Shown: positions 6,900 through 25,318 of the stretch, piece by piece
How the letters are laid out: every line of letters begins with the position of its first letter
Position numbering within the stretch: the stretch's first letter is position 1
NCBI RefSeq assembly: GCF_030518215.1
Contig: NZ_JAULRT010000060.1
Span: 248,001 to 312,000, forward strand
DNA: 64,000 nucleotides
Source of the DNA: Gilvimarinus algae
GTDB taxonomy: Bacteria; Pseudomonadota; Gammaproteobacteria; Pseudomonadales; Cellvibrionaceae
Direction of reading: 5' to 3'
Translations under genes and position numbers: made by a program
The notes under the pieces: generated by a model
What the model saw: the letters and a program-made list of their open reading frames with translations, nothing else
The model's database searches: none
What the model was told of the DNA's origin: nothing

Positions 6900-7300
6900 G
6901 GCGCCGAGTGGTTGTCGTCGTTGTTTACGCGCATATGCTCGCTCTGGGCGCGTTGTTGGTCAATGCGAGTGCGTTGCTGAAGGCTGCCTTCCAGCATGGC
7001 TACCCGCTGAATCAGCCGCTGCAATTGAACCTCCTGGTGCGCCTGGTCTATATCCATCATAAGTATTTTGATCACCAAGACGGCGATAATCGCGACTATG
7101 GCAAGCACTGGTGGATAGCCGACGCCCAAGACCCTTGCGAGCCAGTCCACCAGCGTGGGGGCAAATCCCAGCCCGGCAAAGGCAAAGGCCAGGAGCAACC
7201 AGAAAACGCCATGGCGCACATGGAGTTTATCCCGACGTATAAGGAACAGAATGGTAGCGGCCACCAGCAATCCGACAACGGCGCTTATCCAGAAAATCAT
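6896..7300 (-). CDS. DUF2304 small membrane protein
   Basis: The start is taken at the ATG at 7300 ('MIFWISAVVG'), giving 134 residues. This ATG overlaps the stop of the upstream GT2 gene as ATGA, whereas the longer open frame to 7387 would run deep into that gene. Three hydrophobic helices lie at roughly 1-21, 32-50 and 62-82. They are followed by a coiled coil with many Gln, Arg and Glu residues. The layout and the family partner (a dolichyl-phosphate-mannose-synthase-like GT2 directly upstream) match DUF2304 proteins. It also overlaps the next gene by 4 nt. It probably assists the synthase or transferase at the membrane; the biochemical role is unknown. Confidence 0.75.
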   Translation of the reverse strand: MIFWISAVVGLLVAATILFLIRRDKLHVRHGVFWLLLAFAFAGLGFAPTLVDWLARVLGVGYPPVLAIVAIIAVLVIKILMMDIDQAHQEVQLQRLIQRVAMLEGSLQQRTRIDQQRAQSEHMRVNNDDNHSAP

Positions 7301-8013
7301 GATTTGCTCCCCGTAGGCGCTCCCAATAGGCGTTTGGAGAGGCCCAGTATCAGAGTTTGCAGCAAGTAACGCCCAACCACTAGCCAAGAGTGGAAAACCC
7401 GTGAGGCCCCCTCGCTGCGAACACGCATTTGCACCGGTATATCCAGCAACCTCAACCCGGCACTTTGCAGGCGCAGAAGCACACCGACATCCTGATAGTC
7501 CAGCAGGGTGGCACGGGCGTCAGCCAGTTCTATCATCGCCCGCTGGTTATATACCCTGAAGCCAGAGGTAATGTCCTCAAGCCGCAAACCCGAGGTGGTT
7601 TTCATCATCATCCAGGCGATCAGGCGTAGGCGAGACATTCGCTCTGGGCAGGTGCCAATTGCGACATCTGTTGCGCCATTTATGACAGGCTCGAGCAGGA
7701 GGTGTAGCGAGCCTGGCTCGTGCTGGCCATCGCCGTCCAGGGTTACGACTACGTCGTAGCCTTGTTGCAGTAAGTAGCGGATACCTGTTTGCGTCGCGCC
7801 CCACGCCCCCAGTCTGGCGGCCAAAGGTAGCACTTGGGCGCCTGCTTTTAGCGCTATGGTCGCAGTGTCGTCTTCGCTGTTGTCGTCGACCACTACCACG
7901 GGATAGTGATACCGTGAACGCAGGGTACAGATCACCGAGCCGATGGATGCCGCCTCGTTCAGTGCGGGGATGACAACGCCGACTCTGGGCGAAACACTGG
8001 CTCGTGCTGTCAC
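7297..8013 (-). CDS. GT2 polyprenyl-phosphate glycosyltransferase (DPM1-like)
   Basis: A 238-residue GT-A enzyme without membrane helices. The N-terminal nucleotide-binding strand reads 'VGVVIPALNEAASIG'. It is followed by 'VVVVDDNSEDDT' and the metal-binding 'TLDGDGQHEP' near residue 92. 'DITSGFRVY' is typical of dolichyl-phosphate-mannose-synthase-like members. The likely reaction is transfer of a hexose from a nucleotide sugar to undecaprenyl phosphate. It is the first gene of an operon with DUF2304 and a GT-C-like membrane protein, joined by two ATGA overlaps. This supports a three-part lipid-carrier glycosylation unit. Confidence 0.85.
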   Translation of the reverse strand: MTARASVSPRVGVVIPALNEAASIGSVICTLRSRYHYPVVVVDDNSEDDTATIALKAGAQVLPLAARLGAWGATQTGIRYLLQQGYDVVVTLDGDGQHEPGSLHLLLEPVINGATDVAIGTCPERMSRLRLIAWMMMKTTSGLRLEDITSGFRVYNQRAMIELADARATLLDYQDVGVLLRLQSAGLRLLDIPVQMRVRSEGASRVFHSWLVVGRYLLQTLILGLSKRLLGAPTGSKS

Positions 8014-8279: not shown

Positions 8280-9479
8280 TTACAAGCCGATATTCGGGTC
8301 GGTTTGTACCCGGAAGGTGGCGCCTTGCTCCACCGTGAACCCGTTTTTCAGCACAACTTCCCGGCCGGCGGTTGCAGTAGTATCGCCTTCGTAGATCAGT
8401 GCGCCATCGTAGGTCACGCTTACGCAGGCATTGTGCTCGTTAGTGCCGCTGTACAGTGAAGAGAGCGTCAAGCGGTATGAGGCGAAGTTGCAGTCATTCG
8501 CCGGTACGTCGTTCCAGCCGATATCCTGCAGCAACTCACCCGTGATTAAAAGCTTCTCAGAGCCTGTGGCGCTCGGTTCCATCAGCTCGTGATTGCCGTT
8601 ACTGTCCTCAATAGCGGTGTCCCAGTGGGAAACCGATGACCCCCCTTCCAGGGTCTCCGGCGCGTACATATGAGCGTGGCCGTCAGAAACACCACCCGTG
8701 AGCGGGCCAAGTGCCGCCATAACATTAGGGCCAACCCAGTGCAGATCGCTGGGGTCGGTTGCCGATGCCGCTCGCTCGGAGTCCGTCATATCGGGCCAGA
8801 GTTTGCCTGTGCTGTGGTCCAGCAGGAACTTCATGTAAATATCGTCCATTTCCCACAGCCTGGAGCCGCTGGCCTTGTCAACAAAGGTCAGGAAGCCAAT
8901 GCCGTGGCCGATTTCATGCAGCGCGGTGGCGAAAAAGCTGATGGTCCCTGAAGGAGCCTCGCCCAAGGCGTAATACCATGAGGTTTGAAAAAGGCAGCCA
9001 TCGCTTTCGTCAATTTGTTTATTAAACGTAGCGCCGATATCCGGGTAGTCCACATCCAGGTCTCGATTGGCAAGGCGGTTTGCCAGCGCTGAAGGGTACA
9101 CAGTGTTGGCAAACGCTGGAGAGCTGCCGCCCGCGCTGGGCACCCAATCGGCATAGGCCCAGTCTGGGCCTGCCGATCCTAATACCGCACCGCTGAAACT
9201 GCAGGAAAGATCATTCATTTCTGCAGCCACTTCAATAACGACGTTACTGTCGAGCCTGAGCTCCCAATACTCCAGTGCGCGCTCGAACGCCCAGCGCCGC
9301 TGCTCACCTAAAGTGGTTCCCGGATTACCATCGGCGGTAGAGGCGGCATGCGGAGCATCGTTGGAGTTAAACCCTTCAAGAGCGCCGTCGAGGTACACAG
9401 GGGAGAATACGGAATCAGCCATGGCGCTGCTGACGCAGAAGAGACAAGCCAGGGTCAGGATGAGGTGCGGACGGGTCAT
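8280..9479 (-). CDS. Secreted HExxH metalloprotease-like protein
   Basis: The 399-residue product starts with a clear signal peptide ending near 'SSAMADS'. 'ALHEIGHGIGF' at about 187-195 gives the zinc-binding HExxH. The further 'SHWD' and 'LMEP' motifs (around residues 290-310) recur in secreted zinc proteases with a HEIGHGxGF core. The C-terminal ~90 residues are beta-rich and end in 'LKNGFTVEQGATFRVQTDP', resembling a surface or coat-hanger-type beta module. The start ATG overlaps the stop of the upstream 158-aa gene as ATGA, so the pair is co-translated. The substrate is unknown. The third zinc ligand is not at the metzincin position, so a classical M10 assignment is not supported. Confidence 0.7.
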   Translation of the reverse strand: MTRPHLILTLACLFCVSSAMADSVFSPVYLDGALEGFNSNDAPHAASTADGNPGTTLGEQRRWAFERALEYWELRLDSNVVIEVAAEMNDLSCSFSGAVLGSAGPDWAYADWVPSAGGSSPAFANTVYPSALANRLANRDLDVDYPDIGATFNKQIDESDGCLFQTSWYYALGEAPSGTISFFATALHEIGHGIGFLTFVDKASGSRLWEMDDIYMKFLLDHSTGKLWPDMTDSERAASATDPSDLHWVGPNVMAALGPLTGGVSDGHAHMYAPETLEGGSSVSHWDTAIEDSNGNHELMEPSATGSEKLLITGELLQDIGWNDVPANDCNFASYRLTLSSLYSGTNEHNACVSVTYDGALIYEGDTTATAGREVVLKNGFTVEQGATFRVQTDPNIGL

Positions 9480-10100: not shown

Positions 10101-12389
10101 TTAGAATACAATAACCTTATCTTCCGGCAGCAAGCATATTTCATCATTGCAGGCCTGCAGCGGTAGACGGATCTGCGCTCTGTTCACGAGCTCTCTTGAT
10201 ATTTTTGAAACCTGGATAACGAACTCGCCCTCAAATAAGCCTAAAGGCTCGTCCTGAAAGCCCAGCCTGATCACTTGCTGTTCTGGGTATTGAACATCGA
10301 GTGGTGTGTCGGATTCAATGCTCGTCGGCTTCAGGTAGTCTTGCAGCGGGGTGTTGGAGTTTATGTGCCAGCCCTCTTTGAGGCTAAACTGAATTTCAAT
10401 AGCGGAACAGACTTGCGCTAGCCGCTTTTTACAAACAATGTGGAAGTGGCCGACGCCGTTTGCAAAATATCGAGTATTCCCTGCGCTTCCGGCCGCTTCG
10501 TTGTTTAGGTAAAGCAACGATGAAAACTGATTAATGGCTGACTCTGAAGCGCGGGTTTTAATAAAATTTACGTGCTCAGGGTCTGGTGTAAATGCTTTCG
10601 CATCGAAAGTTCGATTTTTGAGCGAGAGCTCGACCGCCTGAAGTGCGATTTTTGGGGAAATGAGCTCTCCGTCGGCCAAGCTGGAAGAGATGCTTGGTCC
10701 TGGCTCAGTGGTAGTTTGATGTTGAAAGGAAGAAAACTGAGTGGTGGCTGCTTGATAAAGCGCTTCTGCTCGATCCAGCCACTCTGGGTTTTGTGTGATG
10801 TCATAAAGCCCGATAAAGCCTCGGCTAAGATAGGCGTAGTCTTCGAGGCTGAAAAGCTCTTGGCTCCTGTCTGAAGTTCTAAACAATTTTCCTGTTTTTC
10901 GATCAAATCGGGATTGCCAGATGTCCCCTGCAACTTTTTCGGCGATAGTTAGATATTTGCGTTCATCAAATGCGTGTGATGCCATGGCCAGAGAGTAAAC
11001 CATTAACCCATTCCAGCTCGTGATGACTTTGTCGTCTCTGTGCAACTCTCCGCGATTATGTCGTTGTTTAGACAGTGTGCTCAACGCCTCTGTCATTGTC
11101 TCGCTGCGCAAGTGTGTGTCGGTCAAGATGCCAAGCTTACCGTCATAACCTTTATCGCCGGAAAAGGTGTAGGACGTGATGCCGGGAATGCTTAAGAAGT
11201 CCTCCAGGTCAGTCTCTGACCATAAATAAAATCCGCCCTCTTCACCGTTAAAGTCGGCGTCCAAGGCCGAGTAAAAACCATGGTCTGGCTGGTAGAGTCG
11301 CTCAATGGCAAAATCAAGCGTTTCCTGAGCAATGAGCCGGTAGTTGTCATTATAAAAAACCTGCCAGGCTTCCAGGTACACCTGAGCCATCAGTGCCTGG
11401 TTGTACAGCATTTTTTCGTAGTGGGGGATTATCCACTCTTTGTCCGTCGAGTATCGATGAAAGCCGCCGTCAACATGGTCCCGGATTCCGCCGTTCATCA
11501 TGTTATCAAGCTGTATCGACACGAGCTTTTTCAGATTGTGGTCTTCAGTTCTTCTTAATTCGTCGAGCAAGTAGAGCAACAGCGATTCCTGAGGGAATTT
11601 GACCTGCCCATTCAGTCCGCCAAATTCAACGTCCAATGCCGCGATAATTTTCTGCTTGGAAGTTTCTAAAAGCTCATTCGTGTCAATAGTGGCTTGGCCG
11701 TCATTTTTGCTTTCAGTAGTGGCGATCAAGCCAGAAAGCGTTTTAGCTGAGGCGATCAAAAAATCCGGATTCGTGTCCCAGGTGCCCGCCACCCGCTCTA
11801 GCAGGGTAATGAGTTTTGCTTTTGAAAGGTAGGAGTCTATAAATATGGGCAGGCCATCGCCATTGATAATGGCCGTAATCGGCCAGCCGGCGGAACCTGT
11901 TGCGGCTTCCAGCAAGGCGGCGTAGTGGCGATCGATCTGCGGCAATTCTTCTCTATCGACTTTTATGGCGACATATGTGCTATTGATTGCCTTGGCCACC
12001 TCTGCATCCGAAAAGCTTTCCTTGGCCATCGTATGGCACCAGTGGCAGGTGGAGTAGCCAATAGACAGGAAGATGAGTTTGTTGTCCGACCGTGCCTGCG
12101 CTAAATACTGATTGCGCCACGGTTTCCAATTGACGGGGTTTTTCGCGTGTTGGCGCAAGTAAGGGGAGGTGCTTTCCACCAGAGCGTTTAAGTGCCTTCC
12201 TTTTGCGTCGGAGAAGACTCCGTCTTCGTGCTTCTTTTGCGCGGACTTCAGCCATTCATCAAATTCAGGCTTTTCCCGTTCAGGTAAATTTGGCGGCTGA
12301 TAGAACTCTGTCTCAGCCTTCGGTGAAAGGCTGAGACAGATGAGAATGGCTGTTAATCCAGCGTATGTTATGGTTCTAATCTTGAGCAC
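10101..12389 (-). CDS. Exported DUF255 thioredoxin-like/AGE-fold protein with C-terminal DsbD-alpha-like domain
   Basis: A 762-residue protein. A signal peptide covers residues ~1-25. A DUF255 (YyaL/SSP411-type) thioredoxin-like domain follows, with 'SPYLRQHAKNPVNW' at ~75-88 and the active-site 'CHWC' at 115-118. The middle (~240-600) is the alpha/alpha-barrel AGE-like region typical of the family. The last ~110 residues read like a DsbD N-terminal domain, including 'LKEGWHINSN' and a Cys pair in 'ACNDEICLLPE' near the end. Most family members are cytoplasmic and lack this tail. The signal peptide and the DsbD-alpha-like end suggest a periplasmic thiol role. It follows the CRTAC1-type gene by 6 nt. 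Confidence 0.8.
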   Translation of the reverse strand: MLKIRTITYAGLTAILICLSLSPKAETEFYQPPNLPEREKPEFDEWLKSAQKKHEDGVFSDAKGRHLNALVESTSPYLRQHAKNPVNWKPWRNQYLAQARSDNKLIFLSIGYSTCHWCHTMAKESFSDAEVAKAINSTYVAIKVDREELPQIDRHYAALLEAATGSAGWPITAIINGDGLPIFIDSYLSKAKLITLLERVAGTWDTNPDFLIASAKTLSGLIATTESKNDGQATIDTNELLETSKQKIIAALDVEFGGLNGQVKFPQESLLLYLLDELRRTEDHNLKKLVSIQLDNMMNGGIRDHVDGGFHRYSTDKEWIIPHYEKMLYNQALMAQVYLEAWQVFYNDNYRLIAQETLDFAIERLYQPDHGFYSALDADFNGEEGGFYLWSETDLEDFLSIPGITSYTFSGDKGYDGKLGILTDTHLRSETMTEALSTLSKQRHNRGELHRDDKVITSWNGLMVYSLAMASHAFDERKYLTIAEKVAGDIWQSRFDRKTGKLFRTSDRSQELFSLEDYAYLSRGFIGLYDITQNPEWLDRAEALYQAATTQFSSFQHQTTTEPGPSISSSLADGELISPKIALQAVELSLKNRTFDAKAFTPDPEHVNFIKTRASESAINQFSSLLYLNNEAAGSAGNTRYFANGVGHFHIVCKKRLAQVCSAIEIQFSLKEGWHINSNTPLQDYLKPTSIESDTPLDVQYPEQQVIRLGFQDEPLGLFEGEFVIQVSKISRELVNRAQIRLPLQACNDEICLLPEDKVIVF

Positions 12390-12395: not shown

Positions 12396-15300
12396 TTACT
12401 GCTGTTCAACCACATGAGAGCGATTTAATGCCAACGTGTCCATAGATGTTTTTTCACCATTGGGCCAGGTGATTTCTATGGAGTTGATTTTCTGGTCGCC
12501 CAGGCCAATATGCTGCTCTTTCGGGTGTACAGACATATAGCCAATAGTGCTGTGGACTTCACGCCAAATTTTTTGCCCGCCGGAGGTGTGAAGGATAATC
12601 CGCGCACCAATGGCATCCCTTGAAACACCTTTGCTCGGGTTTCCGATAAGCTTGATCTTCACCCAGTTTGAACTGCTGCCTGAGGCATCCAGTTCGTTTT
12701 TGTAAAAGTAGGCCTTTTCATGGTAGTTGTTGAGGATGACGTCAAGGTCGCCATCATTGTCAAAGTCTAGGTATGCGGCGCTTCTCGAGTTGCCGACCAA
12801 GTCCATCCCGGACTCTTTGGAGCGATTGTTAAGCTTGCCGTTTTGGTTGACAAAAAATACGTTCGACTCTTTTGTCGCCACAGGCATATAGATTTTTTTC
12901 GCCTCATTGGAGTGAGGGTCGGTATAGTAGGGGTTCTCGCTACTGTAGATGTTAAACTCATTCATGCCGTTGGTGACATACAGGTCGTTGTCGCCATCGT
13001 TATCGAAGTCAAAAAAGTCTGCGTCCCATGACCAGCCAGTCGACGAATAGCCTCTGCCCACAGCATCGCTCAGCTCGTAAGAGAGCGTGTTGCCTAATTT
13101 GGATAGGAAGAGATCGTTGGCTTCTACCACTCTCATGTTCGCCAACTTCTCGGCATTGAACTTCATTGTGGTGTCTTCGTTGGGTAAGACATACTTTTCG
13201 TCTTTGTTCATGGTGACGATGTTTGAGATGTATATGTCAGGCTGCAAGTCCTGGTTCAGGTCCGCAATGCCAATGTTCATTGTGTAGGACGGTTTGTCAG
13301 TGCCCAATTCTTTTGAGATGTCTTTGAACTGGTTGTTGCCCATGTTCTTCAGGTAGGCGTTTACGCCAAAGTCATTGCCGACAATTAAGTCCTGTAGGCC
13401 GTCGCCATCAAGGTCTGTGTGCGCCGCGGCTTGTCCCCAGCCGGTGTTTGCCGTGCCGCTTCCCTCGGTAACGTTTTTAAACTTGAATCCGCCCATGTTT
13501 TTAAAGAGCTGGTTGGGGAGCCCGTTGTCGTTTCTTCTTTTAAGTGTGGGTAGCACACCTTTTGTATAGTGGCCGAAATAGGTGATGTAGATGTCCAGCA
13601 GCCCGTCATTGTCAAAATCGGCAGCCGTTGCGGGTCCGCCGACTAGGTTCTCTCCGCCTAAGTTAGCGATGTCGGTAACGTCTTCAAACTTTCCATCGCC
13701 CAAGTTCTTGTAGACCCGGTGTGCGTCCTCCACGTAGGTGATCACAATATCCTGTAGGCCGTCGTTGTCCAGGTCGGCGATAATGGGTTGGCGAGGCTCC
13801 CCAGGTGTGTTGTCGGGCTCGCGCTTCCACTCCAGGCCGGCGGCCTTGGTGATGTCGACAAATTTCTCGCCGTTTTGGTTCAGGTAGAGCTTGTTGCCCA
13901 AGCCCCCGAGAATCAGTATGTCGTCATAGCCATCGTTGTTGATGTCCTCGGCAGCAACGCCGCCCCCACCAAAGGCGGGGGGAATGGTAATCACGCCGAC
14001 GCCCTGGCCTTTATCCAGATAGCTGCGCAGCTGACGATTGAGCCAATCCGAAGTGCGGTGCATAAAGTCAATGCCGACCGCCGAAGAGGCATCGGTAAAG
14101 AATTGTGTGTCGGATGTGGGAGAGGAGTCGGCCCCAGAAGAGACAATGGTGTTTTCTTTGGTGTCGACATTTTTAATGGCCGCGTGACGATCCACTCTGT
14201 CCTGAATGGATTTTAGCCCGGCAATAAATACCTCGGACGAAATTCTCTCCTGATCCTTCGATTTTGCGATGTTGCCTGCCGTTCTTAGTGATAAAACGCC
14301 AAACTGAGCGATATTCTCTACAATAAGCTCCAGCGCGAAAGGGTCCGGCTGCAGCTTTGCGTTAAAATCTGGAGCGTTCAGCGCAAATTCCAGGTAACGC
14401 CAGTGCAGCCCGCTGTCGCGGAAGGAGTCCATATCGTAGGATTCGATGGCTACCTGGTCTTTGTGACCGAGCTTGGGGAAGAACAGCGCGTCTTCGTATT
14501 CATTGATTTGATGGGGGATAAACACATCCACCAACGATTGGACATCGCTTTCCCGGATGGTTGAGTGTCCTCTGGAAAGCGCAATTTTTTCGGATTCCAG
14601 GTAGAAATCTCGCGCAAACTGAACCAGGGTTTCAATGTAGAGGTTCTGGAAGTTCTTTGCTTCTTCGGGGTCCTTCGGCCAGCTGACCCGGGCAAAATAG
14701 ACCTGCAGGTTCCTGACGAACAGTTGCTCTGATATGTTGTTATACACTTCGTACGAAGCGACTTTTTGTTCGATGATTCGTTTGACCAGAGAAAGGTCGG
14801 CCGCTTGGGGCGCAGCGCTGCCGCTGGAGGCTTTGCTTGCTTGCACTAAGGCCTGATCTCCCAACAGCTCTGTCCAAACGGAGACCAGGTTGTCCACGGT
14901 AACTTCGTGGTCGTCATTTCTTCTGGCTTTTTCGTCGGCTATTTTTAAAACGGCCAAGCTGTGCAGGTCTAAAGCTTCTTTTAACTGGCTAATCACCTCC
15001 TGGTCGATGGGGAGCAGTGTGGAATCGGCGTCAAACAGCGACTCCTGCTGCACCGCCAATATAGCCCGCAAGGCATAGGCAATGGTCGAGTACTGCCGCT
15101 TATCCACTTTGTTGATATTGACTTGCTGACCCTCGGGATAGGTGACCTCCCAGTGGTCGTTCTTGCCGCGCTTGTAGGCAATAGAGCTGGCCAGTGCTTG
15201 GTTTAATGTTTCTAAAGTGACGGCACTCTGCCCATTTTCTCTCGCCTTCTCGCTGGCCAGCTCCCAAATAGACTGGGCAAACTGCTTTTGCAGCAGGTTT

Positions 15301-15521
15301 TTACTAAAACGCGCCTCGTTTGAGAGGGGCGTGCCGAACATAAAGTCTTCTAGCCTGGAGGCCGTGGCATAACATTTCGGGTCTCTCTCCTTCTCGAGGA
15401 GTTTGATCTGATTGACGATGTCCGCAATGGAGTCTTCAGGTTGCGAGCTTGTCTCGGCAAGGCTGTAGGCCGAACAGAGTAGGGCACAAGAGAAAATGGC
15501 TGTCTTGCTGATCGTCATCAT
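12396..15521 (-). CDS. Exported CRTAC1-type FG-GAP/ASPIC-UnbV protein with helical N-terminal repeats
   Basis: The start is placed at the ATG at 15521, because 'MMTISKTAIFSCALLCSAYSLAE' is a clean signal peptide. The open frame extends to 15728 without features. The ~1041-residue product has three parts. The first is an alpha-helical region (~30-460) with four related units at ~80, ~177, ~292 and ~393. The second is a string of FG-GAP/VCBS blades (for example 'DINNDGYDDILIL' and 'DLDNDGLQDIVIT'). The third is a C-terminal ASPIC/UnbV domain with 'GARIILHTSGG' and 'ITWPNGE'. It is the first gene of an operon with the DUF255 protein. It is probably periplasmic or surface-bound and calcium-binding; the function is unknown. 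Confidence 0.8.
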   Translation of the reverse strand: MMTISKTAIFSCALLCSAYSLAETSSQPEDSIADIVNQIKLLEKERDPKCYATASRLEDFMFGTPLSNEARFSKNLLQKQFAQSIWELASEKARENGQSAVTLETLNQALASSIAYKRGKNDHWEVTYPEGQQVNINKVDKRQYSTIAYALRAILAVQQESLFDADSTLLPIDQEVISQLKEALDLHSLAVLKIADEKARRNDDHEVTVDNLVSVWTELLGDQALVQASKASSGSAAPQAADLSLVKRIIEQKVASYEVYNNISEQLFVRNLQVYFARVSWPKDPEEAKNFQNLYIETLVQFARDFYLESEKIALSRGHSTIRESDVQSLVDVFIPHQINEYEDALFFPKLGHKDQVAIESYDMDSFRDSGLHWRYLEFALNAPDFNAKLQPDPFALELIVENIAQFGVLSLRTAGNIAKSKDQERISSEVFIAGLKSIQDRVDRHAAIKNVDTKENTIVSSGADSSPTSDTQFFTDASSAVGIDFMHRTSDWLNRQLRSYLDKGQGVGVITIPPAFGGGGVAAEDINNDGYDDILILGGLGNKLYLNQNGEKFVDITKAAGLEWKREPDNTPGEPRQPIIADLDNDGLQDIVITYVEDAHRVYKNLGDGKFEDVTDIANLGGENLVGGPATAADFDNDGLLDIYITYFGHYTKGVLPTLKRRNDNGLPNQLFKNMGGFKFKNVTEGSGTANTGWGQAAAHTDLDGDGLQDLIVGNDFGVNAYLKNMGNNQFKDISKELGTDKPSYTMNIGIADLNQDLQPDIYISNIVTMNKDEKYVLPNEDTTMKFNAEKLANMRVVEANDLFLSKLGNTLSYELSDAVGRGYSSTGWSWDADFFDFDNDGDNDLYVTNGMNEFNIYSSENPYYTDPHSNEAKKIYMPVATKESNVFFVNQNGKLNNRSKESGMDLVGNSRSAAYLDFDNDGDLDVILNNYHEKAYFYKNELDASGSSSNWVKIKLIGNPSKGVSRDAIGARIILHTSGGQKIWREVHSTIGYMSVHPKEQHIGLGDQKINSIEITWPNGEKTSMDTLALNRSHVVEQQ

Positions 15522-16132
15522 TGAGTGGGCCGCTCCAGGGTAGCCGGGGAGCCCAGACTTGCTGCTTGACCCCCATAAATTATGTTTGGTGTTGCTATTT
15601 TGTTTTGCCCGGGAGCGGAAAATAAGAGCTCCGGGTTTTGGTGTGCCAGGTATTATGAAGGATTCCCAAAGAGTAAAAAAGCCAAGAGGTGAGGCCTGAT
15701 TCTGGGGAAGGGGCTTTTGCCGTATCACCCGTTTGCGATTGCCCCACCCTATGGCACGCCGGATTTTGTGGTTTGAATGAACAGGCTGAGTTTTCGTGAC
15801 GGGCAGGGCGGCTGCCTGAATTTTAGTAACACGTTGAAAATCAATGAGTTTATTTACACTTCGCAGCCCAGGTGGTAACCGCCGGGGGTGGGTGCTGCGG
15901 TTAATAAATGCTCACTGTGACTCTTTTCACAAAGCCGTGCCGGTGGTACCCTAAGCACCAGCAGGTGGACCGGGAATTTCGCGCCACCCGATAAGTTGAA
16001 AAGGGACGCTAGGAGCTGTTGGAAGGCCTATTGTCGCTCGTAACCGGCCAGATGATTGGGTTTGATGGGGAATATCCAGTCTTGTGGTTTGCACTACTTC
16101 TAACGCTCAGCATAAGAATCAAGGCAGATAAT
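15522..16132. other. Divergent control region of the CRTAC1-type and DUF7933-repeat genes
   Basis: No supported gene lies here. The stretch holds a perfect CRP/Vfr-type palindrome at 15916-15931. It also holds a 7-bp inverted repeat, TAACCGC...GCGGTTA, at 15876-15903. In-frame extensions of both flanking genes reach into it but lack signal peptides. I see no riboswitch that I can name. Confidence 0.6.
15916..15931. promoter_or_regulatory. CRP/Vfr-type binding site
   Basis: The sequence is TGTGA-CTCTTT-TCACA, which matches the TGTGA-N6-TCACA consensus in all ten conserved positions. It lies 202 bp before the start of the 1502-aa repeat protein and about 395 bp before the divergent CRTAC1-type gene. 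The promoter it serves is not resolved. A weak -10 (TACCCT) lies at 15947-15952. Confidence 0.65.
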
Positions 16133-19100
16133 ATGAATTTCAAGTACGCCGCCAGCCGCCCAGCATTGTTGAGCCGGGTCGCTAAGACGCTCGTTGCCCC
16201 TCTTTTCGCATTGGCGTTTGCCGGCGAGGCCGCAGCCCAGGCCAGCTTCTCAAAAACCTTTAGCCCCGATGTCATCGGGCCGGAGAGTACCTCTGCTCTG
16301 ACCTTTACCATTACGGCGCCGGCCGCGGCGACGGATTTTGAATTTACCGATGTACTGCCGCCGGGGTTGGTGCTTGCCTCGCCGCCCAGTCCGACCTTAG
16401 GGGCCGGCTGCGACCTGGGAACCTTGGTGACCGCACCGGCCGGAGGCGATACGATAACCTTCTCCTCGCCCCGGTTGGGCGCTGGCGGCACCTGTACCTT
16501 GACGGTAGATGTCACCGGTGACATTGGGGTCGCCTCAGGCAACTATGACAACGTCAGTAGCGACTTGATCTCCAGCGCGGGAAACAGCGGCCCGGCTGCC
16601 GACACCTTGGAGATTGATGAGAATCGCCCTAGCTTTAGCAAGTTATTCTCCACCAATAGCACCGCCCCAGGACAAATCATTCGGCTGAGCTTTTTTATCG
16701 ATTATACCGGGGGTAGCCCTGTCACCGGCCTCGGTTTCACGGACAACTTGCCCGCGGGTTTACAAGTAGCGGCGGCGCCCGATGTTCTTAATACTTGTTC
16801 CGGCGGCACCTTTACCGCAACGGCGGGAGCATCCTCAGTTTCTTTGGTTAATGCTTTCCTGCTCGCCGGTACCAGCTGCGAAATAGGCGTTAATCTGGAA
16901 GTCACCGGTTTGGGTACGCTTAATAACCGTACCACCAATGCCGGCTCGTCATTGGGTAACTTGGGCTACGCTGTAGACCAGGTGGTTTCCAGCCTGGACC
17001 CCGTTGGGCTGACAAAGCGTTTTGACGATCCCGTGCCCCCAGGCGGCACAACGGATTTGGTATTCACCCTGACCAACAGTACCCGTGATACCGTTACTGG
17101 CATTAACTTTACCGACGACCTGGATGCTACGCTGTCTGGTCTTGTGGCGAATGGCCCATTCTTGTTGTCGCCCTGTGGCGCTGGCTCCAGCATTTCTGGT
17201 AGCAGTCTGCTCAGTTTTAGCGGCGGCAGCCTGGCCAGCGGTGAGTCCTGCACCTTCTCTGTCGAGGTTACGGTACCCGGCGGTGCCGCCGCGGGTAGTT
17301 ACCCCAATACCACCAGCAACGTAGGTTCCAGCGCCGGCACTTATTCACCGGCGACTGACACTCTGAACGTTGGCTATGCACCGGTTTTGGTGAAGGAGTT
17401 CTGCGAGTCAGGCGCCGCGACGACAGATCCCTGCGTTGCGGTTGAGCAAGTAGAGGATGGGGAGCTGATCACCGCTCGGTTCACGGTGAGCAACCCACAC
17501 CCATCTACCACCGTAACGGATCTTACTTTTGATGATGACTTCATCGCCTTTGTCGGCGCTGCCAGTGTCACCCCTTTCAGTGTTCCTGGCGCCTGCGGGG
17601 CGGGGTCGACTTTCTTTGATATCGATGGTGGGTCTTCCAATCGGACTTACCGCCTTATCGACGGTTCTCTGGCGGCTGGAGCTTCCTGTACCTTCCAGGT
17701 GGATGTACAGCTGCCCTCTAGCGTTCCCCCAGGGACTTATATCAACCAGACCACACCGATTTTGGGTGACTATGGCAGTGGCCAGGTGGCCGGCAACCGC
17801 GGCGTGGATCAGGTTAGCCGCGGCGCTGCGCCGCAGCTAAGCAAAACTTTTGATGACCCGGTAGGCGCCGGCGATACGGTGGACTTGGTGTATACGCTGG
17901 ATGCCAGCGAGAGCCCGGAGGACTTTACCAATATCGCCTTTACCGATGACCTGGGCGCTGCACTCACCAATCTTACGGTAGATACCTCTCCGCTCTCGCC
18001 CTGTGGCGGTGCGCTTTCCACGGGCGGCGGCGTGGTATCCCTATCCGGGGCCAGCCTTACGGCCGGGGACACATGCACTTTTACGGTTGTTCTCCAGGTG
18101 CCTGTGGATGCTGCGCCCGCAAGCTACCCCAGCACCACCAGCACGGTTACCGCCACGGCCGCTGGCGAGCCCGTTGTGGGTAGCCCCGCCAGTGATAATC
18201 TTGATATCGCGTATGTGGATTTTCAGAAAGGCTTTATCGACGACCCGGTGGTATCGGGCGGCACCGTAACTCTGACCTTTTTTATCGACAACCTGAGCGC
18301 CGATCCCCTGACTGCGCTGTCGTTTACTGACAATCTTGGGGCGGTATTGACTGGCCTGGCACCTACCGATATGCCGCAGAGCAATATTTGTGGCGCCGGC
18401 TCTTCCGCCAGTTTCTCTGGTGGGGTGTTGACCATCACGGGCGGTAACTTGGCGGTGGGTGAAAATTGCACCTTTTCTACGGTGCTGCAGGTGCCTGCAG
18501 GCACCGCTGCCGGCAATTACGCCAATGTGACCTCTAACCTTACCGGTTCCGCTGACGGCACCCCGTTTGTTGCTCCCGGGGCGGTTGATAGCGTGTTGGT
18601 AACCGATCCCTTGGCGTTGACCAAGGAGTTTATTGACGATCCCGCCGCTCCGGGTGGCACAGTGACCTTGGAGTTTACGGTCACCAACACCAGCCCCAGC
18701 GATACCATCAGCAATATTGCCTTCACGGATGACCTCGATGCGGTATTCTCCGGCCTGGTCTCGGCAAGTGGCGCTCAGGCGGGTGTTTGTGGTGTTGGCT
18801 CCCAGCTCTCGGGTACCAATGAATTAACGTTAACCGGTGGCGAACTCGCCCCCGGTGCATCCTGCACCTTTTCGGCTACGTTGAGCATCCCGGCCAGTGC
18901 TTCCGGCAGTGCGGTTAACACTACATCGACGGTCACGGGGACCATTGGCGGCGTGCCCATCGAAGGCACCGCCGCAACCGATACGCTGCAAATCAACAAT
19001 GTGACCTTTACCAAGAGTTTTTCCGGGCCCAGCACGGCCACAGGTGCGGTCACGCTGAGCTTCACCATTGAGAATCTTGATGCTGGCAATGGCGTCAGTG

Positions 19101-20641
19101 GCCTGTCCTTTACCGACAGTCTTAGCTCGGTAATGGCCGGTTTGGTGGCGACCAATACACCGCAATCCAATGTGTGTGGCGCAGGCTCGCTTTTGGGCGG
19201 CACAAGCTTGCTGACCTTTACCGGCGGAGATCTTGGCCCCGGCGACTCTTGCTCTTTTAGCGTCCAGCTCCAGGTTCCGGCGTCTGCCACAGCCGGCAGC
19301 TACACGAACACCACATCTAACCTGACCAGCAACGGCTTGCTTGTGGCTGACCCTGCCTCAGACGCGCTGCAGATCGAGCCGCCGCCGACCTTTGCCAAGG
19401 TGTTTGCACCCAGTGCCATTGCGCTTAGCGGCACCTCGACCCTGACCTTTACGATCGACAACAGCGCCAGTGCTGTGGCGGCGACGTCACTGGACTTTAC
19501 CGATAACCTGCCTGCTGGACTTCAGGTGTCTGGTACACCAAATGGCTCGACCACCTGCACCGGTGGAACGCTCACCGCAGTTGCCGGAAGCAGCACCGTT
19601 AGTTATACCGGCGCCACTGTCGGGGCCGGCAGCGTGTGTACTGTGCAAGTCGATATCATCAGCACTGCCGAGGGCAACTTTATCAATACCACCGGTGATC
19701 TGACCTCGAGCTCGGGAAACAGTGGCACGGCCACTGACACTCTGGATGTTGTGACTGGCGACTTTGTCATGCTCAAATCGTTCCGCAGCCAGCCAGTATT
19801 GCCGGGCGGCCTCGTGGAAATGGAGCTGTCGTTTGTGAATGGCTCGGCCTTTGCGCTCACGGACATTGCGTTGACTGACGATCTCGATGCCGTTCTGTCA
19901 GGCCTGGTGGCTGAGGGTCTGCCTATTGCCGATGCTTGTGGCACTGGTTCGAATGTATCGGGCACAAGCACTGTGACTGTGACGGGGGGCAACCTGGCCG
20001 CTGGCGGCTCTTGTACTATTGTCGTTCCGGTACGTGTTCCAGCTGGCGCTGCGAGTGGTACCTACACCAACACCACTAGCGTGGCTACCGGTTCGCGAGG
20101 TGGCATTGCGGTTGAGGCGACCGCCGCCAGCGGCGATCTGGTCGTTGAGTCGCTGGCATTTACGGCAGCCATTGACCCAAGCACCGTTCAGCCGGGTTCT
20201 ACGACAACAGCGACCTTTGAAATCATTAACCCGGATCCGGCCAATGCACTGTCTGGACTGGGTTTCAGCTTTGATCTGGATGCATTTGTGCCCGGCATGA
20301 CCGCTACGACTACGCCCCTGAATGACGCGTGTGGGACTGGCTCTGTGGTTAACGGAACATCGACGGTCGCGTTGACCGGCGGTGCGATTGCGGCTGGTGG
20401 CTCGTGTTCGTTCCAGGTAGTGTTGAGCATTCCCGTCTACACTGCGCCCGGCTCATATTCTGGTGTCACGAGCGAGCTGGCCTCTGATCTTGGCAACACC
20501 GCCGGCGCGCCGGTATCTCTATCGGTAGGCGAGGCGGCACCTCTGCCGGCGATCAACACACTGTGGTTGACCTTCATGACTCTGCTAATGGCCATTATCG
20601 GTTGGCGGGCTCTGAGAGTCACAGCTCGAACAGGTTTTTGA
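16133..20641 (+). CDS. Large secreted DUF7933-like repeat protein with sorting-type C-terminus
   Basis: The start is taken at the ATG at 16133 ('MNFKYAASRP'), which is followed by a typical signal peptide ending 'AGEAAAQA'; the frame is open 38 codons further up. The ~1502-residue product is built of eleven repeats of ~120 residues. Each opens with a pattern like 'F-x-K-x-F-x-D-P-x-x-x-G-G-T', passes 'FTDDL' and 'CGAGS', and closes near 'YxNxTS...G'. This is the DUF7933/DUF11-like beta-sandwich type found in long surface stalks. The end is 'PLPAINTLWLTFMTLLMAII' plus basic residues, similar to IPTL-CTERM sorting tails. A single conserved Cys pair per repeat suggests stabilising disulfides. 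It is probably a surface fibre or adhesin. Confidence 0.8.
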   Translation: MNFKYAASRPALLSRVAKTLVAPLFALAFAGEAAAQASFSKTFSPDVIGPESTSALTFTITAPAAATDFEFTDVLPPGLVLASPPSPTLGAGCDLGTLVTAPAGGDTITFSSPRLGAGGTCTLTVDVTGDIGVASGNYDNVSSDLISSAGNSGPAADTLEIDENRPSFSKLFSTNSTAPGQIIRLSFFIDYTGGSPVTGLGFTDNLPAGLQVAAAPDVLNTCSGGTFTATAGASSVSLVNAFLLAGTSCEIGVNLEVTGLGTLNNRTTNAGSSLGNLGYAVDQVVSSLDPVGLTKRFDDPVPPGGTTDLVFTLTNSTRDTVTGINFTDDLDATLSGLVANGPFLLSPCGAGSSISGSSLLSFSGGSLASGESCTFSVEVTVPGGAAAGSYPNTTSNVGSSAGTYSPATDTLNVGYAPVLVKEFCESGAATTDPCVAVEQVEDGELITARFTVSNPHPSTTVTDLTFDDDFIAFVGAASVTPFSVPGACGAGSTFFDIDGGSSNRTYRLIDGSLAAGASCTFQVDVQLPSSVPPGTYINQTTPILGDYGSGQVAGNRGVDQVSRGAAPQLSKTFDDPVGAGDTVDLVYTLDASESPEDFTNIAFTDDLGAALTNLTVDTSPLSPCGGALSTGGGVVSLSGASLTAGDTCTFTVVLQVPVDAAPASYPSTTSTVTATAAGEPVVGSPASDNLDIAYVDFQKGFIDDPVVSGGTVTLTFFIDNLSADPLTALSFTDNLGAVLTGLAPTDMPQSNICGAGSSASFSGGVLTITGGNLAVGENCTFSTVLQVPAGTAAGNYANVTSNLTGSADGTPFVAPGAVDSVLVTDPLALTKEFIDDPAAPGGTVTLEFTVTNTSPSDTISNIAFTDDLDAVFSGLVSASGAQAGVCGVGSQLSGTNELTLTGGELAPGASCTFSATLSIPASASGSAVNTTSTVTGTIGGVPIEGTAATDTLQINNVTFTKSFSGPSTATGAVTLSFTIENLDAGNGVSGLSFTDSLSSVMAGLVATNTPQSNVCGAGSLLGGTSLLTFTGGDLGPGDSCSFSVQLQVPASATAGSYTNTTSNLTSNGLLVADPASDALQIEPPPTFAKVFAPSAIALSGTSTLTFTIDNSASAVAATSLDFTDNLPAGLQVSGTPNGSTTCTGGTLTAVAGSSTVSYTGATVGAGSVCTVQVDIISTAEGNFINTTGDLTSSSGNSGTATDTLDVVTGDFVMLKSFRSQPVLPGGLVEMELSFVNGSAFALTDIALTDDLDAVLSGLVAEGLPIADACGTGSNVSGTSTVTVTGGNLAAGGSCTIVVPVRVPAGAASGTYTNTTSVATGSRGGIAVEATAASGDLVVESLAFTAAIDPSTVQPGSTTTATFEIINPDPANALSGLGFSFDLDAFVPGMTATTTPLNDACGTGSVVNGTSTVALTGGAIAAGGSCSFQVVLSIPVYTAPGSYSGVTSELASDLGNTAGAPVSLSVGEAAPLPAINTLWLTFMTLLMAIIGWRALRVTARTGF

Positions 20642-20822: not shown

Positions 20823-22361
20823 GTGAACACATACAAAACAATTAAAATGACCGCATTGGCGATAACTATCGCCGCGGCTTGTTCGTGGGCAAATGCCCAG
20901 AACTCGGTTCTCTTTGAGAGTCACACACTGCCTGACGCGGTGGTTTTCGAGCCGACAGATATTATGGGGTTGGATGCCGAGGTCGACCTGATTATCTCGG
21001 GCCCGGAAGGCTATTATGAGCGCTTCAGCTTTTCCGCTGGGGGGCCGATAGAGTTTGTCCCCGCTGCCTTGGCTGGGGACAACTTGCCCGATGGTACTTA
21101 CCGCTACGAGCTGCGCATTATGGGTGTTCCGGGGATGTCGCGCGATCGCAACAGCGACCAGCCGGTTACTATTGAGCCAATCGAGGGCGGGTTTGGCAGC
21201 TTCTCGATACAGGGCGGGCAGCTCGTCACTTCGAATGTCGCGGAGGCACCCTATAAAGGCTCAAGCTTTCGAGCCTCCAAAGTTGTCGGTGAAGAGCGCG
21301 GCGAGCTTGTTGCTGAGGAGCAAACGTTCGTTTCAGACGTAGAAGTCCAGGGCAGCCTGTGTGTCGGCGTCGACTGTACCACCAGCGAAAACTTTGGCTT
21401 CGACACCATTCGTTTAAAGGAGAACAACCTTAGAATCAAGTTTGACGATACCAGTAACTCCGGAAGCTTTCCTAACCACGACTGGCAGCTCACTGCAAAC
21501 GAGACCAGCAATGGTGGTATGAATAAATTTTCCATCGATAATACAACAACCGGACGCACTCCATTCACCGTGGAAGGCAACGCGCCTAATAACACTTTGT
21601 ACATCGCCGACGAAGGTCGAATTGGTATCCGAACCACCACGCCAGTTGTGCCGGTACACATGACAGACGGCAATACACCTGCTGTGCGGCTTGAGCAAGA
21701 CGGCAGCTCCGGCTTTGCCGCTCAGACTTGGGATGTCGCTGGAAATGAAACCAATTTCTTTATTCGCGATGTAACCAATAGCAGCAAACTCCCTTTCAAA
21801 ATCCGTCCAGGCGCGCCGACCAACTCGTTTTTTATTGATACCGATGGTGACGTGGGGGTGGGCACTGATTCCCCAGATGCCAAGTTCGAAGTCTCGTCGG
21901 TAGCCAGCTTTAACTTTTTTCGTTTAACGGCTACGCAGGCCTCGCCCAACTCTTCGGTAGACTTCACATTTACTGATGCTGGTGCCGACGGGCAGTTGCG
22001 TATCAATATTGTGGATGCAGACGCTCAAGAATTTGCGCTAGATGCAGATGGGAATCTCACAATAAGCGGCACCTTAACCGCCAATGGTTCAACTTTTCCG
22101 GATTACGTATTTGCTGATGATTATGTGCTAATGCCTCTGAATGAAGTAAAGAAATTTATTCAGAAAAATCGTCATTTACCTAATGTGCCTTCCGCGAAGG
22201 AGATTGAAAAGGATGGCCTGAATATGACCGATATGCAGAAGCTAATCATGGAGAAGGTTGAGGAGCTTACGCTCTATACGATTCAGCAGCAAGAGGCGAT
22301 TGAGGAACAGCGCAAGTTAATTGCTGAGCTCAGGAAAGAGATTGAGAGCATGAGGCAGTAA
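20823..22361 (+). CDS. Secreted tail-fibre-like protein with C-terminal coiled coil
   Basis: The start is a GTG at 20823, supported by AGGAG at 20811-20815 and an immediate signal peptide ending 'SWANAQ'. The 512-residue product has an N-terminal beta domain (residues ~25-150), then repeats of the type 'GRIGIRTTTP' and 'GDVGVGTDSP'. These are common in fibre-like 'tail fibre domain' proteins. 'DYVFADDYVLMPLNEV' and 'NRHLPNVPSA' lead into a coiled coil that begins 'MEKVEELTLYTIQQQ'. The C-terminus is typical of trimerising, chaperone-like ends of secreted fibres. It lies 181 bp after the repeat protein on the same strand, perhaps in one transcript. A shorter paralogue is encoded at 30.2 kb. 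Confidence 0.75.
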   Translation: MNTYKTIKMTALAITIAAACSWANAQNSVLFESHTLPDAVVFEPTDIMGLDAEVDLIISGPEGYYERFSFSAGGPIEFVPAALAGDNLPDGTYRYELRIMGVPGMSRDRNSDQPVTIEPIEGGFGSFSIQGGQLVTSNVAEAPYKGSSFRASKVVGEERGELVAEEQTFVSDVEVQGSLCVGVDCTTSENFGFDTIRLKENNLRIKFDDTSNSGSFPNHDWQLTANETSNGGMNKFSIDNTTTGRTPFTVEGNAPNNTLYIADEGRIGIRTTTPVVPVHMTDGNTPAVRLEQDGSSGFAAQTWDVAGNETNFFIRDVTNSSKLPFKIRPGAPTNSFFIDTDGDVGVGTDSPDAKFEVSSVASFNFFRLTATQASPNSSVDFTFTDAGADGQLRINIVDADAQEFALDADGNLTISGTLTANGSTFPDYVFADDYVLMPLNEVKKFIQKNRHLPNVPSAKEIEKDGLNMTDMQKLIMEKVEELTLYTIQQQEAIEEQRKLIAELRKEIESMRQ

Positions 22362-22730: not shown

Positions 22731-23357
22731 TTGAACCCTGATAACTATTTTTTAAAGCAGGACTATAGGAGTCATAAGATTCCTCGCCCATTTAACGACT
22801 CTGAAGAGGATGCGTTGACTTACCAGTTGGAGGTCTATCAATTTGCAGCTGATGTTATCCAAAAGCTGGGGTGTCGAAGTGTTCTCGATGTCGGTTGTGG
22901 CTATGCTCTGAAGCTGGCTAAGTATATCAGGCCCCTCTGCGAAAAAATCGTTGGTGTCGATCAGGATCATGCGATCGACTACTGCAATAGCAATCATGCT
23001 TTTGGTCAGTGGATAGTTGATAATCTTGAGGTTCCGCAGACATCATTCAACGAAAAGTTTGATCTTATTGTTTCGGCGGACGTTGTCGAACATTTGGTAG
23101 ATCCGGATTCACTTCTTAACTACATTCGAAGGTGTGCATCAGAGAATTCTAGAATAATTATATCTACACCAGAGCGAGATTTGCGCCGCGGGGCTGACTC
23201 TATGGGGCCTCCAGCTAATCCAGCTCACGTCCGAGAGTGGAACAAGTCTGAGTTTGCAGCTTATTTAAAGGATCGAAATTTCCGAATTCTTGATCACCAA
23301 ATAATGAACCTAAAAGAGGGGATGCCAACTTGCCAAACAGTGTTGTGCACTATTTGA
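22731..23357 (+). CDS. Class I SAM-dependent methyltransferase
   Basis: A 208-residue enzyme started by a TTG at 22731. GAGGAG at 22717-22722 lies 8 nt before it and no nearby ATG is in frame. Motif I reads 'VLDVGCGYALKLAKYI' (residues ~47-62) and motif II ends in 'VGVDQD'. 'FDLIVSADVVEHLVDP' is the motif IV/post region of the Methyltransf_11/23 type. It is likely to methylate a sugar or glycan intermediate, given that neighbours encode two more methyltransferases, a capsule-type transferase and GT2 enzymes. The acceptor is not identifiable. Confidence 0.8.
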   Translation: MNPDNYFLKQDYRSHKIPRPFNDSEEDALTYQLEVYQFAADVIQKLGCRSVLDVGCGYALKLAKYIRPLCEKIVGVDQDHAIDYCNSNHAFGQWIVDNLEVPQTSFNEKFDLIVSADVVEHLVDPDSLLNYIRRCASENSRIIISTPERDLRRGADSMGPPANPAHVREWNKSEFAAYLKDRNFRILDHQIMNLKEGMPTCQTVLCTI

Positions 23358-23651
23358 CATGCTTTCCTCGCCAAGCTCCGGTGGCTTTGTTGTGCCCATA
23401 CGATGGCGGCGAAGTGGGTGTGTGAAAGTTGCTGAGAAAAACATGGTGTTAATTTGGTTTGTGCAAGTAGTAGGCGATTGGGGGCAGTGTGGCAGCAAGG
23501 CGCTTTAATCGTGCGCCAGCATATACTTTAAGTCAATAGCTCCGCGGGTACTGATATGAAAAGGGGGTAGTTCCTATGTTCTATAGACTTCTTGTGCTAA
23601 ACCTGACTTGAGTTCTTTCATCCGTTCCAAAAAAAATACCACCTTTCTTAA

Positions 23652-24653: not shown

Positions 24654-25318
24654 GTACATCTGCAAACCAGATATCTTTGAACCTTCTCAATTGTTTAGAC
24701 AGCGAAGACGAACGTAAGTTGTTGGCTCGTTTTCTTACGTGCGAGTGTGTGCTTCCCGATCGCCCCGGTGTCCTTGGTATTGCTTCGGAGCGTGCGCCTA
24801 GTAAAGGCTCTATTCTGGAGTTCGGTGTGTATAAGGGGGCGTCAATCAGATATTTATCCGACCTATTTCCAGGCCGCAGAATATATGGTTTTGACTCTTT
24901 TGTCGGTTTGCCAGAGCCTTGGGTTCGAACCACCGATGGGAAGTTCTATGGTGTGGGGCATTTCAGGCTAACTCAGAAACCGACGGTGCCAGATAACGTA
25001 ACGCTCGTTGAGGGCTATTTTGAGAGCACACTGCCTGTTTGGCTATCCAGCTTTAATGGGATAGTCGCTCTCCTGCATATTGATGCCGATCTTTATAGCT
25101 CAGCAAAATTCGTGCTTGAATCCTTGGATCGTTACTTGGTTCCAGAAGTTGTGATCGTGTTTGATGAGCTGTGTGATTGGCAGAATTCGGGGGTCTATTC
25201 AGCATGGCCGGATGGTGAGTGGAAAGCTTTCTGTGCATGGATTAATGCTTCTAAGTTCAATTTTGAAGTTATTGCCAGAGGGGTTCAGTATTCTGCCGCA
25301 ATTCGGATTACTGCCTGA
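24650..25318 (+). CDS. TylF/MycF-type O-methyltransferase
   Basis: A 222-residue class I SAM methyltransferase of the macrocin-O-methyltransferase (TylF) family. 'GSILEFGVYKGASIRYL' is the SAM-binding motif. 'IYGFDSFVGLPEPW' and 'LVEGYFESTLP' are highly characteristic of the family. 'LLHIDADLYSS' provides the metal-binding Asp cluster. TylF-like enzymes methylate sugar hydroxyls in a metal-dependent way, which supports O-methylation of a glycan here. It is coupled to the upstream gene by a 4-nt overlap. Confidence 0.85.
   Translation: MSTSANQISLNLLNCLDSEDERKLLARFLTCECVLPDRPGVLGIASERAPSKGSILEFGVYKGASIRYLSDLFPGRRIYGFDSFVGLPEPWVRTTDGKFYGVGHFRLTQKPTVPDNVTLVEGYFESTLPVWLSSFNGIVALLHIDADLYSSAKFVLESLDRYLVPEVVIVFDELCDWQNSGVYSAWPDGEWKAFCAWINASKFNFEVIARGVQYSAAIRITA

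Follow-up and report, generated by a model that had tools for sequence, protein, structure and literature searches.

A predicted quadruple histone-fold domain joined to a CRTAC1-type propeller in a bacterial protein with an export signal

Human cells pack their DNA with proteins of the histone fold. To our knowledge, histone folds have been studied almost wholly as intracellular proteins of DNA or of transcription complexes. Double histone folds have been reviewed (PMC13088155), and in the sections of that review drawn on here the bacterial ones are doublets. Archaeal 'acidic quadruplets' with four histone folds per chain (cluster 5, Poseidoniales) are described, and quadruple histone combinations in giant viruses noted, in the consulted parts of PMC13260811, while the main text of a further survey sorts prokaryotic histones into 17 categories (Schwab 2024, PMC11390915). 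Here we analysed a stretch of 64,000 nucleotides from Gilvimarinus algae (contig NZ_JAULRT010000060.1, positions 248,001 to 312,000; hereafter the window), and in it a minus-strand gene at 12396..15521 for a protein of 1041 residues. An initial annotation had noticed, by eye, four periodic histone-fold-like units in this exported CRTAC1-type protein, and the three strings it quoted are present in the translated sequence. We consider it probable that the encoded protein combines a Sec-type signal, a pair of double histone folds in tandem, a calcium-binding-type FG-GAP propeller and an ASPIC/UnbV domain, and that the histone folds would serve as a rigid binding scaffold outside the cytoplasm and not in DNA packaging.

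Predicted structure and sequence support for four histone folds

The N-terminal domain was modelled with AlphaFold2 (AF2) at a mean predicted local distance difference test score (pLDDT) of 92.8 and a predicted template modelling score (pTM) of 0.92. The model contains four units built as alpha1, L1, alpha2, L2 and alpha3, at residues 29-88, 127-198, 243-312 and 350-426 (model numbering; adding 22 gives the precursor numbering used elsewhere in this text). According to DSSP, alpha2 is continuous in units 1-4 (28, 28, 32 and 28 residues), alpha3 spans 8, 12, 11 and 20 residues, and each L1 and L2 holds a single bridge residue (eight of eight loops), so that the prediction reproduces the histone-fold order of alpha1, L1, long alpha2, L2 and alpha3 with beta bridges. 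In precursor numbering, alpha2 is predicted to begin at residues 68, 174, 285 and 394, with spacings of 106, 111 and 109 residues, which agrees with the units placed near residues 80, 177, 292 and 393 in the initial annotation. The histone-fold pattern proposed there also held against the array similar to tetratricopeptide repeats (TPR) that it had named as the outcome speaking against it, as the AF2 model has helix-strand-helix geometry. The gene and its parts are as follows.

12396..15521, minus strand: whole gene, 1041 residues, with four predicted histone folds, FG-GAP propeller and ASPIC/UnbV domain (open reading frame and translation)
15456..15521, minus strand: putative Sec signal peptide, residues 1-22 (MMTISKTAIFSCALLCSAYSLA), recognized by eye; family N-termini are mostly signal-like
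15387..15440, minus strand: helix alphaN1 preceding histone fold 1, residues 28-45 (AF2/DSSP)
15372..15374, minus strand: Cys50 codon, in 74 of 74 aligned members
15192..15371, minus strand: predicted histone fold 1, residues 51-110, with its alpha1 (YATASRLEDFMF) conserved above all other elements (AF2, conservation)
15114..15179, minus strand: three-stranded beta insert joining histone folds 1 and 2, residues 115-136 (AF2)
14862..15077, minus strand: predicted histone fold 2, residues 149-220, partner of fold 1 in the double histone fold (AF2, Foldseek)
14739..14792, minus strand: helix alphaN2 preceding histone fold 3, residues 244-261 (AF2)
14520..14729, minus strand: predicted histone fold 3, residues 265-334, the unit closest in sequence to histone-fold chains of solved structure (profile, AF2)
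14445..14513, minus strand: three-stranded beta insert joining histone folds 3 and 4, residues 337-359 (AF2)
14178..14408, minus strand: predicted histone fold 4, residues 372-448 (AF2; hhalign to the other units)
12642..14084, minus strand: CRTAC1-type FG-GAP beta-propeller containing DxDxDG-like loops, approximate limits residues 480-960 (Pfam)
12417..12614, minus strand: ASPIC/UnbV domain, residues 970-1035 (Pfam UnbV_ASPIC, 3.7e-16)

Further evidence came from Foldseek searches with the AF2 models, HMMER searches of the Protein Data Bank (PDB) and hhalign comparisons between units. In the Foldseek search of the PDB with the whole domain, the first 35 rows all contain histone folds, as do 43 of the best 50 of 485 matches (E<=10). 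The first doublet, when modelled alone, kept the same elements (pLDDT 92.0, pTM 0.88) and returned histone-fold proteins in its first 41 rows and in 44 of the best 50 of 919 matches (E<=10, including the poor match 1r4v); four matches reached E 0.001 or better, and the doublet aligned with single-chain H2A-H2B over roughly 170-220 columns. The Foldseek probability was 1.00 for most of the top rows. In the viral library, one of 425 matches lay at E<=0.001, a Marseillevirus histone protein with 9.8e-5 and low template modelling (TM) scores of 0.27 and 0.21.

The sequences point in the same direction. A 74-sequence profile of the N-terminal region matched 11 PDB chains at E<=10, all with histone folds (best 4wzs_B, 0.0027). 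With the first half alone, six of seven matches were histone-fold chains (best 0.042), the seventh being a designed TIM barrel; the second half, based on 37 of the 74 sequences, gave 20 of 25 (best 0.0013), the remaining five being Tim9 and four chains of RuvB-like protein 2. Among the PDB matches we scored HPhA, HmvA, HapC and Ghd8 as what we take them to be, histone-fold proteins. Plasmodium ORP1 (9rif), a weak match to the second-half profile (E 0.59), was scored likewise on the basis of the consulted part of PMC13323700. As a control, six of the 74 sequences were searched forward, which gave three histone-fold matches out of four (best 0.0088; the fourth was a major histocompatibility complex chain), and reversed, which gave none among eight PDB matches, all of them LAMTOR1 (best 0.27). 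The Pfam model CBFD_NFYB_HMF contributes weak evidence, scoring at E<=1 in 23 of the 74 members (best 2.4e-5). A scan of the window genome with PF00808 for a classical histone found none at E<=1, not even the family gene itself. The family is accordingly related in sequence to histone-fold proteins at modest significance, and profile and fold searches of the kind that the initial annotation had proposed returned histone-fold proteins first.

The hhalign comparison also shows, at the level of sequence profiles, that the second pair of predicted folds is a duplicate of the first. In the model, each half runs from a helix alphaN through a histone fold, a three-strand insert and a short helix to another histone fold. 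The two halves aligned at 95% with E 3e-8 over 137 columns, as opposed to 0.7% for a reversed half; the aligned span starts midway through the alpha2 helix of the first fold and runs on to where the second fold ends, and the equivalence of alphaN and the first alpha1 between the halves is taken from the order of elements. All six unit pairs scored 65-87%, falling to 0.07-0.44% when one unit was reversed. These scores identify the domain as a duplicated double histone fold and, together with the forward matches that lack a reversed counterpart, indicate that the repeat pattern is more than chance. Neighbouring folds, 1 with 2 and 3 with 4, would pair as intramolecular pseudodimers, where the first doublet follows from the model built alone and the second from hhalign and the whole-domain model. 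The initial annotation was thus right to see four histone folds in tandem, with the refinement that they do not stand as separate beads and form two double histone folds related by duplication.

Prediction and profiles together support the predicted assignment of four histone folds to the N-terminal domain, although several results weigh against it. None of the whole-domain matches in the PDB reached E<=0.001 (best 2.1e-3), and the top three were fused constructs with TM near 0.25 and root mean square deviations near 20. Plain histone doublets reached TM scores of only 0.43-0.65 by target length, with fused constructs lower, and the Aquifex double histone fold 1r4v was a poor match (probability 0.13, TM 0.24). 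The sequence E-values were modest, as seen for the first-half profile, and one member scored 1.2e-5 with the unrelated Pfam family DUF6730. Models of AAA+ lids were as common at E<=1 as the histone model, with 28 of the 74 members matching Cdc6_lid and 24 matching the LonB lid.

The last observation bears on the idea that the units, instead of being histone folds, repeat the C-domain (lid) of AAA+ proteins, which has the helix-strand-helix motif in common with histones. NCBIfam ORC1/Cdc6 models in ten of the 74 members (best 4.6e-4) and RuvB-like protein 2 among the second-half matches speak for it, and common descent of both folds was proposed by Alva and colleagues (PMC1847821, in the part consulted). 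However, the first-doublet search, with its unbroken run of histone-fold rows, contains no AAA+ lid among the best 50 of 919 matches, and alpha2 continues over 28-32 residues in all four units, as opposed to the hinge described for C-domains in the same part of that paper. The arrangement of a C-domain, with two helix-strand-helix motifs, a hinge and self-closing, was not found in the predicted units; on the continuous alpha2 and the fold matches of the first doublet, we reject AAA+ lid repeats as very improbable. The least probable possibility, to which we give hardly any credence, is that generic all-alpha repeats resemble histones by accident, a suspicion that arises because the evidence of the initial annotation was gathered by eye. 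TPR-like or chance helices are contradicted by the PDB profile matches, the AF2 model, the Foldseek matches and the reversed control.

Conservation, charge and DNA-contact signatures

The best conserved elements among the 74 members are, within fold 1, alpha1 (mean 0.90) and L1, together with the short helix ahead of fold 4 (0.87) and the segment preceding fold 1; next, at about 0.70, come the alpha1 helices of the second and third folds, L1 of the third and alpha2 of the fourth. Across the folds, the alpha1 means range from 0.62 to 0.90. The least conserved parts are L2 and alpha3 (0.27-0.45), the first beta insert (0.30) and the linker (0.19). Twenty-four columns, mostly polar and including Cys50, are invariant in 74 of 74 members. 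The two peptide patterns used to find the family span residues 47-64 or so, and conservation there is favoured by this selection; Cys50 and Lys49 were nevertheless retained in all 47 members outside the first pattern, as were Arg56 and Gly63 in all seven outside the second. In 58 of 74 members the domain has no cysteine other than Cys50, and in 28 of 66 complete proteins Cys50 is the single cysteine after the signal region.

The net charge of the domain has a median of -8 and a range from -32 to +7 among the 74 members. The DNA-contact signatures named in the consulted part of PMC13260811 are RKTV in L2, the R-D clamp, RV in L1 and the RT pair. In L2 of folds 1 and 2, lysine or arginine occupies any given position in at most 20% of members (0-20%), with single-position peaks of 65% in fold 3 and 47% in fold 4. 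Against a domain free of DNA stands one L1 position in fold 3, which is basic in 99% of members (arginine in 58 and lysine in 15 of 74). Scored solely as the frequency of lysine and arginine in L1 and L2, the features of nucleosomal DNA wrapping were not found. Because most of the canonical DNA-contact signatures are missing, we use 'histone' as a description of the fold only, and the acidic charge together with the non-conserved basic residues of L2 makes it unlikely, as judged from sequence, that the predicted array wraps DNA.

Export, family distribution and gene neighbourhood

The start codon is taken as the ATG at 15521. An in-frame GTG upstream, at 15728, would add 69 residues; the ATG is preferred because the signal-like stretch then begins the protein, and most relatives begin likewise, as judged by eye. 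Sec-signal-like N-termini were recognized by eye in most family members, with starts picked by a script that chose an internal methionine in seven rows. The gene is present in a single copy in its own genome. Over residues 28-448 or so there is no Pfam match above the cut-off, the sub-cut-off scores in the N-terminal 450 residues or thereabouts being Cdc6_lid 0.036 and PCP_red 0.087, and an NCBIfam scan of the window protein gave no match. Since Pfam models miss the family or score it marginally, surveys built on those models would overlook it. FG-GAP repeats (FG-GAP_3 1.5e-36, FG-GAP 1.7e-17) and the UnbV_ASPIC domain place the C-terminal part among CRTAC1 / ASPIC-UnbV proteins, and with the signal seen by eye they bear out the exported CRTAC1-type protein of the initial annotation.

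All 66 long, uncut fusion relatives carry four to seven DxDxDG-like motifs. This set comprises the complete fusion proteins among the window, locus L007 and the related loci, after dropping nine frames truncated at a contig edge (L008, L014, L029, L039, L054, L057, L058, L077, L081), two short frames (L027, 478 residues; L065, 806 residues), the duplicate L006, and L072 and L084, which missed the motif filter. The shortened frames lie at L027:1037-2470 and L065:5926-8343, and their genes may be broken or mis-sequenced, because both loci recur in a cluster related to the full-length family protein.

With the window genome included, the N-terminal region was found in four of 58 relatives and in three of 369 genomes of the class, one of these being a marginal match (79 positions, E 6e-4), and a larger profile found it across the phylum in one of 398 genomes, the window's own; the family is therefore sparse. 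Scanning a single genome for each species returned at least 76 related loci, a lower bound because the two peptide patterns restrict the scan. The 74-sequence alignment consists of the window, two further loci and 71 of the 76 scan loci, leaving out the partial L027, L058, L077 and L081, L039 (on the contig of L008), L086 and L087. The rows of the tree bear seven phylum labels, taken from the titles of the records, many of which are bins from metagenomes: Bacteroidota (30), Pseudomonadota (28), Acidobacteriota (6), Verrucomicrobiota (3), Planctomycetota (2), Hydrogenedentota (1) and Omnitrophota (1), with three rows carrying none. The rows group by phylum with some exceptions (10 changes, against a shuffled mean of 32.1) in a tree made by a quick method, in which the long branches L072 and L084 are unsure. 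The nearest named relative, from Gilvimarinus gilvus, is 82% identical. Pattern-limited scans found no archaeal locus among the 76 and no relative in viral contigs, and on the latter result a viral origin was set aside.

Two neighbours of the gene recur among the related loci.

10101..12389, minus strand: next gene downstream, with a signal-like N-terminus (by eye), a DUF255 thioredoxin (CHWC) and a DsbD-alpha-like C..C tail (by eye)
20823..22361, plus strand: fibre-like protein with a signal-like N-terminus, a recurrent neighbour (PHROGs tail fiber, 3.3e-7)

The DUF255 protein matches Pfam Thioredox_DsbH at 6.1e-53, occurs once in the genome and ends in a tail that we liken, by eye, to the DsbD alpha domain. 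A homologue is present in 27 of the 76 related loci, several of which are too short to show it, and in 22 it lies on the same strand at a short gap. The fibre-like protein has homologues in 45 of 76 loci (matches not inspected singly; that of L028 is doubtful, as its frame overlaps the family gene). Its genome holds one full-length copy and a partial one, the latter a second copy of the C-terminal part at 30239..30766 on the plus strand with 45% identity over 173 residues. Neither neighbour is universal, which weighs against the role proposed below. Both were matched in all four genomes with the family gene among the 58 relatives, where in G049 the DUF255 match lies on a separate contig and the family gene is cut by the contig end; the 54 relatives without the family gene gave a DUF255 match in seven and a fibre-like match in five. 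Such overlap would arise by chance in 7.8e-4 (DUF255) and 3.0e-4 (fibre-like) of draws, figures that flatter the link because the four genomes include two from one genus and the window supplied the queries.

Among the 60 loci readable for both traits, a DUF255 gene stands beside 24 of 26 single-cysteine proteins and 3 of 34 others. Strong as these raw counts are, the association fails a correction for the tree (five independent pairs: two in the same direction, none opposite, three equal; p 0.5), and we discarded DUF255 and the single cysteine as independently linked traits: the correlation is mostly due to phylogeny. Bacteroidota retain Cys50, yet no DUF255 gene was seen nearby at any of their loci.

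CRTAC1-type genes next to hydrazine-synthase homologues have been reported in the consulted part of PMC12758564. For the present loci we set that context aside, as the CxxCH counts of the neighbour clusters, obtained with no direct homologue search, come almost wholly from the CHWCH thioredoxin cluster; recurring clusters made of antisense open frames were ignored. The CHWCH motif of 10101..12389 also fits the haem-c pattern CxxCH and can mislead automatic cytochrome counts. The minus-strand frame 8280..9479 has a signal-like N-terminus and a HEIGHG metalloprotease-like motif (by eye) and belongs to no Pfam family at E<=0.01; Gilvimarinus gilvus carries a homologue, 70% identical, on the downstream side of its family gene. 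On the plus strand, 16019..20641 encodes a repeat protein of 1540 residues with 11 DUF7933 stretches and homologues in 15 of 76 loci. A glycosyltransferase gene (7297..8013) and methyltransferase genes (22731..25318) flank the region, as in a surface-polysaccharide locus.

Proposed role and comparison with known histone-fold proteins

The absence of most DNA-contact signatures and the usually acidic domain lead us to read the folds as an extracytoplasmic scaffold for proteins or ligands; outside the cytoplasm, such a fold would most likely grip proteins or another ligand, not DNA. The histone array may form a rigid docking platform, on which the alpha1 helices and the segments preceding them, carrying most of the conserved residues, would dock a protein or ligand, and the propeller could act as a second binding part. 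The protein would probably act in the envelope, perhaps alongside the fibre-like neighbour as a partner. In Proteobacteria and some Acidobacteriota, the exported thioredoxin/DsbD-like partner might keep the invariant cysteine reduced.

Two other functions have to be weighed against this scaffold. The polar residues that are invariant and lie on or close to the alpha1 helices (Cys50 with Lys49, Arg56, Arg71, Arg152, Asp363, Asp365, Arg368, Asp369, His373, Glu398, Glu402) might instead form a catalytic, metal or cofactor site whose cysteine is serviced by the thioredoxin/DsbD-like neighbour. We hold this to be unlikely, despite the 24 invariant columns, the persistence of Cys50 in members not chosen by its pattern, its frequent status as sole cysteine and the position of DUF255 beside single-cysteine proteins, because that association follows phylogeny, Bacteroidota keep Cys50 with no DUF255 neighbour at any locus, and the invariance around residues 47-64 was partly helped by the search patterns. 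Slightly more doubtful again is the bolder proposal that, in a widespread lineage of bacteria, a tandem double histone fold was converted to an active or cofactor site outside the cytoplasm, with the invariant cysteine and polar residues lying on the alpha1 side, by which other histones hold DNA, and kept reduced by a dedicated exported thioredoxin/DsbD-like partner; if true, the histone fold would here have a catalytic or cofactor-binding function. A histone exported to bind extracellular DNA, as a nucleoprotein of the surface or of biofilms, would fit the conservation of alpha1, which is part of the DNA-binding face in histones, the almost invariably basic L1 position of fold 3, and the fibre-like and DUF7933 neighbours, which suggest the cell surface. 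The usually acidic domain and the lack of conserved basic residues in L2 of folds 1 and 2 stand against it, and we regard it as improbable. We therefore retain the binding scaffold as the preferred reading.

The closest described systems share parts of this architecture. Four-fold chains are already in print for archaea, so the array is not unprecedented; a search of one open-licence literature library found no exported or propeller-fused histone-fold protein. The Poseidoniales cluster-5 quadruplets are archaeal, and neither 'signal peptide' nor 'secreted' occurs in the main text of PMC13260811. Methanopyrus 1f1e, Thermus 1wwi and the SOS1 N-terminal domain 1q9c likewise carry two folds per chain as a pseudodimer (PMC13088155, in the part consulted). 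The TM scores of the first doublet by target length are 0.65 for 1f1e, 0.61 for 1wwi and 0.54 for 1q9c_A. The Thermus and Aquifex double-histone-fold proteins presumably belong to DUF1931. Known double histone folds comprise one doublet whereas the present domain has two, and the words secreted, extracellular, periplasm and propeller are absent from PMC13088155. Among the categories of PMC11390915 are bacterial histone folds of which some, as here, lack DNA-binding residues; in its main text, periplasm, secreted, signal peptide and propeller do not occur. The alpha3 family described there has an alpha3 of 3-4 residues, in contrast to 8-20 in the present family, and the truncated alpha3 and shortened alpha2 of alpha3 histones (Bd0055-like, face-to-face and others) were not found, with alpha2 at 28-32 residues.

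The Plasmodium oocyst rupture proteins ORP1 and ORP2 also place histone folds outside the nucleus, at the oocyst capsule, where a DNA role is unlikely; they differ in being two separate eukaryotic proteins that form an NF-Y-like trimer with ORP3, with no propeller mentioned in the consulted part of PMC13323700. Beta-bridges were proposed by Alva and colleagues to have bound proteins first and DNA only later (PMC1847821, in the part consulted), a proposal for which the present family offers a natural test. With CRTAC1 / ASPIC-UnbV FG-GAP proteins the likeness extends over the C-terminal 560 residues or so, to which a quadruple histone-fold domain of about 420 residues is added here; such a domain is not described for the CRTAC1-type proteins in the consulted part of PMC12758564. 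The family appears as a histone fold multiplied to four, equipped with an export signal, joined to an adhesion-type propeller and spread over seven bacterial phylum labels. To the fold recognized in the initial annotation, the present analysis adds that the four units arose as two doublets by duplication, how the family is distributed, which side of the domain is conserved, that most DNA signatures have been lost and which genes lie nearby.

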